Positions 33,202-56,592 of a stretch of DNA of 64,000 nucleotides are shown piece after piece (within the stretch, counting starts at the first letter, position 1; the number at the start of each line of letters is the position of its first letter). Both the position numbers and the translations under genes were made by a program. Source of the DNA: an uncultured Caulobacterales bacterium (lineage in GTDB: Bacteria > Pseudomonadota > Alphaproteobacteria > Caulobacterales > Maricaulaceae); contig CALFVT010000002.1 in the NCBI GenBank assembly GCA_937928165.1, forward strand, positions 248,001 to 312,000, in the 5' to 3' direction. The notes below the pieces were generated by a model, which ran no database searches, was not told the DNA's origin, and was given only the letters and a program-made list of their open reading frames with translations.

Positions 33202-34410
33202 ATGAATAAACGTGTACTTCTGATTATTGGCGGCGGCATTGCAGCTTATAAATCCCTTTTTCTTATTCGGGAACTGGCCCGGCGAGGGGTTCAGTCTCGC
33301 GTGATTATCACCAAAGGCGGGACGGAATTTGTCACCCCTTTATCGGCGGGAGCTTTGTCGGGGGATAAAGTCTTTACGGATTTATTTGACCTCACGGATG
33401 AGGCGGAGATGGGCCATATTGAGCTTTCCCGCGCTGCAGACCTTGTGGTGGTGGCGCCGGCTACGGCAGACCTGCTCGCTAAAGCGGCTCACGGGATTGC
33501 TAATGATCTGGCGACGACCACGCTGATGGCGACGGATAAGCGGGTATTGTTTGCGCCGGCGATGAATGTGCGCATGTGGGAGGCGGCCTCGACCCAGCGT
33601 AATGTGCAGCAGCTTTTGGATGATGGGGCCTATTTTATCGGGCCTGATGCGGGGGATATGGCTTGCGGGGAATTTGGCCCCGGACGCATGGCGGAGCCGC
33701 CAGTGATCGCCGATCATATTTTAGGACTGCTGCAAGGGGATACAAGTCTTGACGGACTGCGTGCACCCAAACCCCTTAAAGGGCGGCATATGTTGATAAC
33801 GGCCGGCCCCACAAGGGAGCCCATTGACCCAGTACGCTATTTATCAAACCATTCGTCCGGCAAGCAGGGCTACGCTATTGCGGCGGCGCTCTCGGGCCTT
33901 GGGGCGAAGGTGACGCTTGTGTCGGGCCCTGTGAACTTACAGCCGCCTGAAGGGGTGGACTGCGTGAGAATTGAAACCGCGCGGGAGATGTTGGCGGCCT
34001 GCGAAGCGGCTTTGCCGGCGGATTGTTTTATCTCTGTCGCGGCCGTGGCGGATTGGCGGCCCAAAGCCTGCGGGGATAAAAAAATCAAAAAAGATAAAGA
34101 CGGCATTCCGCCGCTTAACTTGACTGAGAATCCTGATATATTGCGCACATTATCTAAAGCGGAAAATAGGCCGCAATTAGTTATCGGTTTTGCCGCAGAG
34201 ACGAATGATGTGATTAACCATGCCAAGGCCAAGCGAGCGAAAAAAAAATGTGACTGGATTGTCGCTAATGATGTATCAGGGGACGTGATGGGCGGCGATC
34301 ATAATGAAATGATTTTAGTCACGCCGGACGGCGAAACGACATGGCCGCGCCAGAGTAAAACAGGGGCGGCGCGGCAATTAGCTCTTAAAATTGCGCAGGC
34401 TTTGTTATGA
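33202..34410 (+). CDS. coaBC: Phosphopantothenoylcysteine decarboxylase/synthase CoaBC
   Basis: The bifunctional coenzyme A enzyme. The N-terminal CoaC (FMN) domain has GGGIAAYKSL, the HIELSRAADLVVVAPATADLLAK catalytic-His region, PAMNVRMWE and the active-site Cys in DMACGEFGPGRMAEP. The C-terminal CoaB domain begins with ITAGPTREPIDPVRYLSNHSSG, binds CTP, and contains ISVAAVADWRP and LTENPDIL. Length 402 is normal. The stop overlaps the start of the next gene by four bases, forming a coaBC-unknown-dut operon, as coaBC and dut are also adjacent in many bacteria. Confidence 0.95.
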   Translation: MNKRVLLIIGGGIAAYKSLFLIRELARRGVQSRVIITKGGTEFVTPLSAGALSGDKVFTDLFDLTDEAEMGHIELSRAADLVVVAPATADLLAKAAHGIANDLATTTLMATDKRVLFAPAMNVRMWEAASTQRNVQQLLDDGAYFIGPDAGDMACGEFGPGRMAEPPVIADHILGLLQGDTSLDGLRAPKPLKGRHMLITAGPTREPIDPVRYLSNHSSGKQGYAIAAALSGLGAKVTLVSGPVNLQPPEGVDCVRIETAREMLAACEAALPADCFISVAAVADWRPKACGDKKIKKDKDGIPPLNLTENPDILRTLSKAENRPQLVIGFAAETNDVINHAKAKRAKKKCDWIVANDVSGDVMGGDHNEMILVTPDGETTWPRQSKTGAARQLALKIAQALL

Positions 34411-35675
34411 AAATAGTAAAAACAACCTTGGCGCTTTTTCTTTTGGGGCTAAGCGGCCTCACCGCGCCTTTGGCGGCGGCGGATAATATTGCAGCCTGCG
34501 AAGTGTTGATAGCTGAACGGATTGAAGACGAAGGAACGGGCGGTTCTGCGCTTATATCCAGTTACCGCCCTGCGGGGGCGTTTATAAGCTCTGTTTATGA
34601 TGATGAGCCGGGTCATATTCGCGAAGTTGACGGCCATAATATTCGCGCCGTTTTATGTGAGCGCCGCAGCGCCGTGCCGAGCCTGCGTGATTATCCGATT
34701 ATTGAGACAGGCATACCTTTAACTTTGTCGCAAAATTTCGATTCGGCCAAAAGTGATGTGGTGATAATCCGGTTTAAAGATGGCGCTTTTCAGGCTAGCT
34801 ATACAGGCCCTGGCCTCACCCCGCAGGCCCAAGCGGAGCTGGATGACGTTGTGGCTGTGTTTAACCTACAGCCTAATGATCTTGCGCAGCGCGAGGCAGC
34901 GCAAACGGTGGAAACCGACGCGGAGTCAAAAGGGGCTTCTGAACCGAATGAAACGAGCGTGCCGTTAAAGGCGCAAGCGCCAGATATTAATATTGTTACG
35001 CTGAGTGCGTCTGAGGACGGGCTTAATGGGAGCGCTTTTACTGATGAAGTTGCAGAGGAAAAAGCGGTTCAAGCCGATATCGTCAGCGCAGCGGCGGAGC
35101 CAGAAATCTTACTGGAAACTGTCTTGACGGATACCCCTATTACCGAAGCGGCCCCGCCTGATACGGCAATAGATGAAATTATTACGATTGAGACAACGAA
35201 TGATAAAGCAAACACGGTGCAAGAGGCCTCTGCTTCGCCGCTTGCGGGTCCGCCCATAGAGGCAGAAGCGCCGCCTCCTGAGACATGCCAAATTATTGCT
35301 CGAGATGGTTTGGGGCAAATTCAAGAACTGCCTGTTTCCACCGAAGCCCTATATAAAATTATTAATGATGCGCCTGTGTTTATTTTACCTGTTCCGCCGG
35401 GGCTGAACCTTCGCGCCCTTCGCTGCATACGGCTGAGTCTAACCCCGCGCGCTAATGATTATAAAGTAGCGCGGGCGGGTTATGCATTTTTCTATCAAGT
35501 GGAAGGGACTGATGAACGCGCTGCGGCCCTTGAATTTGCCAGAGGTAAATTTCGTATGAACCTTGTAGAGGGTGATTTTACGGCGCAGGAGTTAATTGAT
35601 GCCAAAGCGCGTATTTTATCCTTTAATGACCAACATCTTAAAGTTATTCAAGCGCAAAGAAAAGATGTCAAATGA
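34407..35675 (+). CDS. Unknown exported protein with two duplicated domains
   Basis: A 422-residue protein with a signal peptide (to about LAAAD, residue 26). I do not recognise the family. Two segments resemble each other: residues ~30-155 (two cysteines, 31 and 84; [18 protein letters not shown] then [21 protein letters not shown]...DDVVAVFN) and residues ~293-408 (Cys294 and Cys340; [18 protein letters not shown] then [20 protein letters not shown]...AKARILSFN). They are separated by a ~135-residue acidic Glu/Ala/Thr/Asp-rich linker, probably disordered. Each copy carries one Cys pair, which could form a disulfide after export. It is coupled by four-base overlaps to coaBC upstream and dut downstream. 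Confidence 0.75.
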
Positions 35676-36127
35676 GCCTAATAATTGAATTAAAACCTCT
35701 TGAGCACTTTGCCGGCTTAGAGTTTCCGAAATATGAAACTAAATTAGCGGCGGGAGCAGATTTGCGCGCCGCTGTTCCGGCTCAGCAGCCAGTTGTACTT
35801 GAACCAGGTGAGCGGGCTTTGGTGCCAACGGGCCTCGCTATGGCTCTGCCGGCGGGATATGAAGCGCAGATACGCCCGCGTTCGGGACTGGCTTATAAGC
35901 ACGGTATTACCTGCCTGAATACGCCCGGAACGATTGACGCTGATTACCGCGGGGAAGTGAAAGTTCTACTTATTAACCTTGGAGAGGCCATCTTTGAAAT
36001 TCACCGTGGGGAAAGGATTGCACAAATGATTATAGCCCCGATTATTCAGCCCGCGTTTAAGTCTGTTGAGGTTTTATCTGAAACGGCGCGCGGGAGCGGC
36101 GGCTTTGGCAGTACCGGAACGGCCTAG
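35672..36127 (+). CDS. dut: dUTP diphosphatase Dut
   Basis: The trimeric dUTPase that hydrolyses dUTP to dUMP, keeping uracil out of DNA and supplying thymidylate synthesis. All five motifs are seen: AGADLRA (1), [11 protein letters not shown] (2), [13 protein letters not shown] (3, catalytic Asp), RGERIAQMI (4) and GSGGFGSTG (5, C-terminal arm). 151 residues is usual. The ATG overlaps the previous stop by four bases, so it is the last gene of the coaBC operon. Confidence 0.96.
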
Positions 36128-54828: not shown

Positions 54829-56592
54829 CTAATTTTCATCAATGGAGAGATTGAAACAAACATCTCCGTTATTCGCGGTATTGTTATCGATATTTAAGAA
54901 ATCAAAAAACTCGAGTACATGTTCACCGGCTTGTAGCGTCGCATTTCCAGTTTCAGAATCGACTACGCCAGAATCAAGTTGCGTCACAAATATTGGTCCG
55001 CGGAAGATATTAATATCCGGATCCCGGCCTGTTGCGCCAGACGTTCGTACAGCGCTTATGGCGTAAGAATCGGTTGTTGGGATATCAACACGAGCATAGA
55101 TGCGGTTACCAAGTTTGTTAAACTCGCCCTCATCATCAACTGAGCAGACCTCAACATTTGTTCCATCAGGGGTCAACTGATGATAAACGGGCAAAGCTGT
55201 TGATATGTTGCCATCATTGGTCTCGCCCGTGCCTTCGAAGCCGCGTCCGCTAATAGATTGTCCATTTAAGAGATTATCCAGCTCCGCAGAGCTTGCCGGA
55301 GCTTCAATGCGAACTTGTTCAATAAATGAGAAGATTGTCGTAAATGTAGGTTGATTAATATAATTTGGCGCCGTTAAGGCGGCAACAATAGGGCCAAGGC
55401 CAAGGGTTAAATTATCATTACCATCATCTACGCTATCAAAGATGTCATAAATAATAGACTGCACAGAGCCTTCGTTAAACCAGCCGGATACATCACCCAA
55501 ACCGTTAAAGACAAAACGGTTGTTTTCAACGTCAAAGCTAAAGCCGGTAGATTGCTGATTCCCGCTACTGTCGCGGTAAATGGAATCGTCAAGGATAATA
55601 CCGGAGAGTGCATTGCCCCAACCTTCCCCCATGGCGACGCGGGCATCAAGCCGGTCCCCCAGAGAATGTGGTCCCCCGACGGAGTCAGAGCGTGAGAGAC
55701 GGTCTTCAAAATAATGGCCCCATTCATGGGTAACTACATGGCGGTCATATTCGTCCGTATCAGCATTATCATCACCTAAGATAAAGACCATGCCCGTTTG
55801 GCCATTACCAACATAGGAAGATGTTCCGATGTCGCCATTGGCACGGTCACCCGAGACAGATCTGTTTTGCGGACTCCAACCGATATCAAGCTCTGGGAAA
55901 TTTGTCCCTGGCGCAGCAGCCAGAAAATCTGTAACGGTTTCAAAAATAGGGTCAAGCACAGCAAAAGGCCCCGCGGCGCGGGGGCTGCTATAGGCGCTTC
56001 CGTCCCAGCCCGAATCTGCATTCAAATCACGGACTGAATCTGCGGCTCCTGTATTTACAAGATTACCTTGAACCGCATATACGGCATTGCCGTTTGTATT
56101 GTCGACCACGCTGACATCAAAACTTCCGCCTTGTGTGCTTGTGATCTCAGATAAAACCCGAATGCGTATGTCTGTATTGTTATTAACGCTTAAGCTGTAA
56201 TTCCCGCTAGCGTCCGATTGAGTTGTTTCAACAACTGTCCCGGCGGCGTTAACGGCTTGAACCGTGGCCCCGCGAATAGGCGCTTGGGTAATCGCGTTAT
56301 AATTTAGTCCATTCGTTGCAGTGTTTAATGGCACTAAATCAAATGTCACGCTCCCGCTAACGGTGACCGATCCTGATACCGGCGGCGGAGGAGGAGGTGG
56401 CGGCGGCGGAGGTGGCGGCGGAGGTGGCGGCGGAGGAGGTGGCGGAGGAGGTGGCGGAGGAGGAGGTGGCGGCGGAGGAGGGGGCGGTAAATCTGCCACT
56501 GCTGTGGGCGCATTTGAGCCGCCGCCGCCGCAGGCAGATAGCCCGGCAATACAAAACGCAGCGATACTTGCTGTCATCAAAAGGTGTCTCAT
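54829..56592 (-). CDS. Metalloprotease-like lipoprotein with 36-proline tract
   Basis: A 587-residue lipoprotein (LSAC, Cys21). A run of 36 consecutive prolines (residues 36-71), then a carboxypeptidase regulatory-like beta domain (GSVTFDLVP to about 150), then a peptidase-like domain with VVTHEWGHYFEDRL: His289, Glu290 and His293 form HExxH, and MGEGWGNALSG supplies a likely third acidic ligand. This fits the gluzincin-type proteases. The tract may act as a rigid stalk from the membrane. The opposite strand encodes a long poly-Gly frame, a shadow. It is eight bases upstream of the small exported protein. Confidence 0.85.
   Translation of the reverse strand: MRHLLMTASIAAFCIAGLSACGGGGSNAPTAVADLPPPPPPPPPPPPPPPPPPPPPPPPPPPPPPPPPPPPVSGSVTVSGSVTFDLVPLNTATNGLNYNAITQAPIRGATVQAVNAAGTVVETTQSDASGNYSLSVNNNTDIRIRVLSEITSTQGGSFDVSVVDNTNGNAVYAVQGNLVNTGAADSVRDLNADSGWDGSAYSSPRAAGPFAVLDPIFETVTDFLAAAPGTNFPELDIGWSPQNRSVSGDRANGDIGTSSYVGNGQTGMVFILGDDNADTDEYDRHVVTHEWGHYFEDRLSRSDSVGGPHSLGDRLDARVAMGEGWGNALSGIILDDSIYRDSSGNQQSTGFSFDVENNRFVFNGLGDVSGWFNEGSVQSIIYDIFDSVDDGNDNLTLGLGPIVAALTAPNYINQPTFTTIFSFIEQVRIEAPASSAELDNLLNGQSISGRGFEGTGETNDGNISTALPVYHQLTPDGTNVEVCSVDDEGEFNKLGNRIYARVDIPTTDSYAISAVRTSGATGRDPDINIFRGPIFVTQLDSGVVDSETGNATLQAGEHVLEFFDFLNIDNNTANNGDVCFNLSIDEN

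Follow-up and report, generated by a model that had tools for sequence, protein, structure and literature searches.

Among described domains, those that invite comparison with the protein studied here belong to the JAB-type toxins, and an excerpt of the published description of Tox-JAB-2 (DUF4329) lists the residues E, H[ST]H, S and D (PMC3482391). The likeness is at the motif level only: the tips of two RHS proteins carry an HxH motif followed by D, an order recalling the CxR...D of our protein (protein X), compared here with that same excerpt (PMC3482391). Protein X differs from Tox-JAB-2 in that it lacks the histidines and shows no significant profile similarity. Searches of a limited literature set turned up no paper on gene X. 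Its nearest counterparts are single-domain genes of the family of Hellea balneolensis DSM 19091 (NCBI family Robiginitomaculaceae), the sole match in a single-protein contig scan. These genes share with X the position between coaBC and dut, a signal peptide judged by eye, a cysteine pair and the CxR...D signature, but encode one domain rather than two. The H. balneolensis domain shares 22% identity with the second domain (domain C) of protein X.

Gene X lies in the window, by which we mean the whole 64,000-nucleotide stretch of DNA analysed, from an uncultured Caulobacterales bacterium (Table 1). As the initial annotation had described, the gene overlaps both neighbours by four bases: an ATGA is shared by the coaBC stop and the X start (coaBC ends at 34410), and another by the X stop and the dut start (dut starts at 35672). 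A Pfam-confirmed gene for a ubiB-type (ABC1) kinase lies upstream. Residues 1–25 look by eye like a type I signal peptide, and X is apparently exported. The cysteines at 31/84 and 294/340 were found where that annotation had placed them, and X has exactly these four. Its description of the linker as acidic was equally accurate, with 28 D/E against 5 K/R and one aromatic residue in 157–291; by its composition, the linker is probably disordered. Elsewhere in the window, the reverse strand (54829–56592) encodes a lipoprotein-like protein with a long proline run close to the N-terminus.

Table 1. Features of the coaBC–X–dut locus in the window, and positions of related domains in other loci
Feature	Location	Strand	Basis
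coaBC (phosphopantothenoylcysteine decarboxylase/synthase), upstream partner	33202..34410	+	Pfam DFP 2.4e-71, Flavoprotein 9.1e-30
Two-domain protein X, 422 aa	34407..35675	+	ORF, ambiguous bases absent
X putative signal peptide, residues 1–25, no lipobox cysteine	34407..34481	+	By eye; relatives' N-termini similar
X domain N, residues 29–156; C31, C84, CxR...P...D	34491..34874	+	Alignment and profiles
X linker, residues 157–291, acidic, cysteine-free	34875..35279	+	Composition
X domain C, residues 292–410; C294, C340; diverged homologue of domain N	35280..35636	+	Alignments, profiles, tree, AU test
dut (dUTPase)	35672..36127	+	Pfam dUTPase 6.6e-33
f4 family domains	L032 5713-6168; L067 2890-3336; L069 2610-3044		
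RHS protein tips with HTHP/HSHP	L071 2639-2980 (G017); L101 1504-1863 (G248)		Pfam matches none

To compare the two halves of X, we used pairwise alignments, profiles and structure models. The halves align as had been claimed, with a BLASTP E value of 8e-6 (a single comparison), 24% identity and 97 columns, and their Smith–Waterman score was 65, compared with a maximum of 52 in 1,000 shuffles. The profile of 16 N-type relatives, from which the window was left out, gave the C half 20.1 bits, compared with a top score of 4.6 among 2,000 shuffles. Built from ten single-domain relatives and never including the window, a second profile (A2) gave 44.5 bits to domain C and 39.4 bits to domain N (best of 2,000 shuffles, 7.9). 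In profile–profile comparisons, each a single comparison, domain C together with the L032 domain matched the N-type profile at E 4.9e-9 and the ten-member A2 profile at E 2.6e-15. The 29-row family profile (A4) matched the two domains at 2.6e-43 and 1.5e-24, the window being one of its own members. AlphaFold models of the halves, built from three rows each (window N, window C and the Hellea domain L031), reached a pLDDT of 49.6 and 49.3, at which the cysteines cannot be placed; the order of strands and helices was alike in these low-confidence models (pLDDT 49). The alignments and profiles indicate that domains N and C are homologous and that the duplication is real.

The domain is approximately 115–130 residues long. 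Two cysteines are invariant in all 29 aligned domains, the second lying in the CxR motif, of which the arginine is invariant too, as is an aspartate. Outside the signal-peptide region, this pair represents the only cysteines in the 30 sequences listed; its members lie 41–59 residues apart, and the thioredoxin-like redox motif CxxC is thus absent from the pair in these sequences. The 16 aligned N-type relatives share 32–55% identity with the window N domain. Several relatives carry acidic tails, and one (L010) an acidic stretch ahead of the domain. We compared relatives in 12 pairs, none of which included the window: the dN/dS ratio ranged from 0.03 to 0.17 in 10 of them, two were saturated, and the five pairs with dS below 1 gave 0.07 to 0.17. 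The domain is under purifying selection in the relatives.

Searches of Pfam, NCBIfam and PHROGs with the 29 domains returned single-member rows only (best E 0.0058), and the Pfam scan of these members gave no significant match to JAB or DUF4329. Neither half of X was named by Pfam or NCBIfam, in line with the lack of a family name noted at the outset, and profile searches of the same two databases found no known family covering one half only. In sequence searches of the PDB, the best E values were 0.86–2 with the A2, A4 and A7 profiles, and nothing was found up to E 10 with the window protein. PADLOC returned nothing for the window protein or for two RHS proteins, the plasmid search matched neither the window protein nor an RHS tip (that of G017), and one scan of viral contigs with A2 found no relatives. 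The domain family is lineage-restricted and without a name.

Based on a single-protein search, 37 of 99 relatives were matched at E <= 1, with strong matches on the N half; those on the C half were weaker. Some single-domain proteins matched both. At the level of the order, the A4 profile matched 51 of 299 genomes, and in the class sample one of 385, the window's own. Within the family, A4 matched 76 of 137 genomes, one of these matches (G017) being an RHS protein, and gave no match in the other 61, some of which are incomplete. The absence of X from many family genomes suggests that its role may be dispensable. One frame in G059 (E 0.003), with neither coaBC nor dut nearby and missed by A4, was dropped as a chance match.

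The survey of coaBC–dut loci in relatives, proposed as a check in the initial annotation, found the slot of X kept and its coupling to coaBC and dut present outside the window genome as well. In 73 of the 75 X-bearing family genomes (excluding G017), dut followed X on the same strand at a distance of at most 2 kb, a count that concerns dut alone and not coaBC. Among the 41 loci read (28 + 8 + 5), X was flanked by both genes in 40; in the exception (G705), it follows coaBC and dut lies on a separate contig. In G709, X is at a contig end and a dut match is absent. Among 28 loci, 14 showed the four-base overlap with coaBC and 4 that with dut, with X starts set by script and dut starts by alignment. 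Compared with the window, which matches the profile, carries the invariant cysteine pair and occupies the coaBC–dut slot like the rest of the coaBC–X–dut family, the other members differ in having one domain per protein. We also fetched 13 of the 51 X-less genomes that have a dut match, and in all 13 the aligned ends of coaBC and dut were separated by 14–181 bases. Since coaBC and dut abut where X is missing, X would represent either an insertion into the coaBC–dut operon or a gene repeatedly lost from it. In G730, a CAAX-protease-like (Rce1-like) frame (L091 3095-3781; 22.3 bits at a cut-off of 22.4) lies between X and dut, suggesting that this gap admits other genes too.

Two domains in one frame were detected, at the threshold of the profile, only in the window among the 137 family genomes; a second domain too degenerate to be recognized may exist in other long members. 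It is possible that the fused form, seen in one genome, is an assembly oddity, yet its frame is open and free of ambiguous bases. The genome G293 offers an unfused parallel: there, coaBC and dut enclose two single-domain X genes in tandem (L066 2843-3334 and 3468-3956), neither matched by Pfam.

Finally, we analysed the origin of domain C with a tree of 54 domains, from which matches above 1e-5 and near-duplicates were left out. Window N fell inside a clade of 26 rows (98/97). Domain C fell outside this N-type clade, on a branch of 2.36 changes per column, weakly placed beside it (86/48), in a tree for which the tool warned of long-branch joins and the bootstrap had not settled. The AU test, with groups named once the tree had been seen, rejected N and C as sisters (p 0.006) and N and C together with three g12 relatives (p 0.034), and did not reject C with four sequences of another family, f4 (p 0.44). 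One alternative is that N was duplicated recently within the window's lineage and that the C copy then diverged so fast that the tree misplaces it. The very long branch of C, with the warning and unsettled bootstrap just mentioned, would fit such a history, as would the weak position of C beside the whole N-type clade rather than among other types, and the tandem copies in G293 show that neighbouring copies occur. We nevertheless regard a recent duplication as rather unlikely: both groupings of N with C were rejected whereas that of C with the f4 sequences was not, C scored higher with the other-type profile (44.5 bits) than with the N-type profile (20.1–20.7 bits), and C has NDYKV-like and G-F/L-T-xxE features of the other type, which may be ancestral. 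The GC3 of C (0.356) differs from that of N (0.477) and of the linker (0.481), which is suggestive but no proof. Taken together, C is probably an anciently diverged copy, a reading favoured over that of a recent copy with fast drift; its separate ancestry is supported but model-dependent. The claim that X contains two copies of one domain therefore stands as homology, but C appears to have diverged from N anciently rather than recently (AU p 0.006, with the long-branch caveat).

The A4 profile also matched 12 genomes of f4, and we read the neighbourhoods in three. The domain was located near frmA in all three loci and adjoined fghA in two; in L069, a gene for a GFA-domain protein sits between frmA and X. 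In one genome of f5 (G224), the domain is placed elsewhere. The X family therefore has a second home close to formaldehyde-detoxification genes, which raises the alternative that X acts in thiol or cofactor chemistry tied to its neighbours, that is, CoA synthesis here and glutathione-dependent formaldehyde removal in f4. Such a role would account for a domain found again beside thiol-cofactor enzymes and for its invariant cysteine pair. It is, nevertheless, very improbable, as the neighbouring enzymes are cytoplasmic while the X domain looks exported, the cysteines are 41–59 residues apart with no CxxC, and coaBC and dut remain adjacent where X is missing.

Another alternative concerns the RHS proteins. 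According to this proposal, the domain descends from an RHS polymorphic toxin tip (JAB-like, HxH...D), has been disarmed and exported, and now serves as a binding domain or an antagonist of such tips. The A4 profile found the tip of the G017 RHS protein at E 6.7e-4, a value at which about 0.2 false matches are expected in 299 genomes. Conversely, the G017 tip as query matched five of 249 genomes: itself, the RHS tip of G248, X of G006 (1.2e-4), X of G023 (8.8e-4) and one rejected frame. The latter, in G003, was a chance match, with an internal stop and an overlap on the same strand with a frame that by eye is transporter-like. With hhalign, the two tips scored 53.7 against A2 and 43.3 against A4, far above 300 column shuffles each (at most 17.3 and 19.7) and 138 pieces of 51 window frames (at most 17.7 and 18.3); the G248 tip alone scored 29.1 and 26.5. 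The HTHP/HSHP motifs of the tips fall close to the CxR position of X, with a conserved D after each. In contrast, the match is limited to approximately the last 65 residues, from about CxR to the end, and the tips differ from X in their HxHP motifs, the lack of X's cysteines and their terminal position in RHS proteins. The N-type profile gave a weaker score, 25.7, a value without a control. X itself has no such histidines, and the JAB/DUF4329 residue set is absent from it, C and R being invariant at CxR in all 29 domains. Against eight of the nine DUF4329 matches (L111 was left out), both X (14–17) and the tips (12.2) scored at the shuffle level, and X and the tips match no Pfam family except RHS repeats. 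A joint profile run on 254 genomes found no further intermediate but a weak row in G119 (E 0.007), and the two-tip profile matched none of 308 class genomes. On balance, descent from an RHS tip is unlikely. From the motif order and the excerpt describing Tox-JAB-2 (PMC3482391), we hypothesize that the RHS tips may be related to JAB. The family genomes also contain DUF4329 (JAB) proteins with HTHG motifs (L105 and L107–L111), which by eye resemble stand-alone lipoproteins. In its full form, slightly less probable still, the proposal of descent from RHS tips makes the X family a domesticated, catalytically dead offshoot of them: HxH would have become CxR, with the new cysteine pairing with an N-terminal one, and the domain, once exported, would have come to be carried in a housekeeping operon, perhaps as a tip antagonist, before the window species joined two diverged copies. 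If this link were true, a toxin domain would have been disarmed and then reused.

The reading we prefer, to which we give about an even chance, is that X represents an exported, probably disulfide-stabilized, non-enzymatic binding domain carried in a housekeeping operon and bivalent in the window. The invariant cysteines would most likely form a structural disulfide in the periplasm, and since a catalytic set is not evident, we take the domain to bind or to serve as a scaffold and not to act as an enzyme. The coaBC–X–dut operon would supply steady, translationally coupled expression, and a pathway link to the neighbours would not be necessary. The lineage of the window would have fused the domain, via the long acidic linker, to a second copy that had diverged from it long ago, and one polypeptide with two tethered heads may allow bivalent or two-ligand binding. 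We infer export, the disulfide, the non-enzymatic binding role, bivalency and fusion after duplication from the sequences and their arrangement.

The X family is new and real but modest, with one member unusual in having two domains, and it opens no new class of system. These results define a domain family that is under selection, is apparently exported and occupies a fixed slot of a housekeeping operon in marine bacteria of the family of Hellea, and the window genome provides one case in which this domain has turned two-headed.
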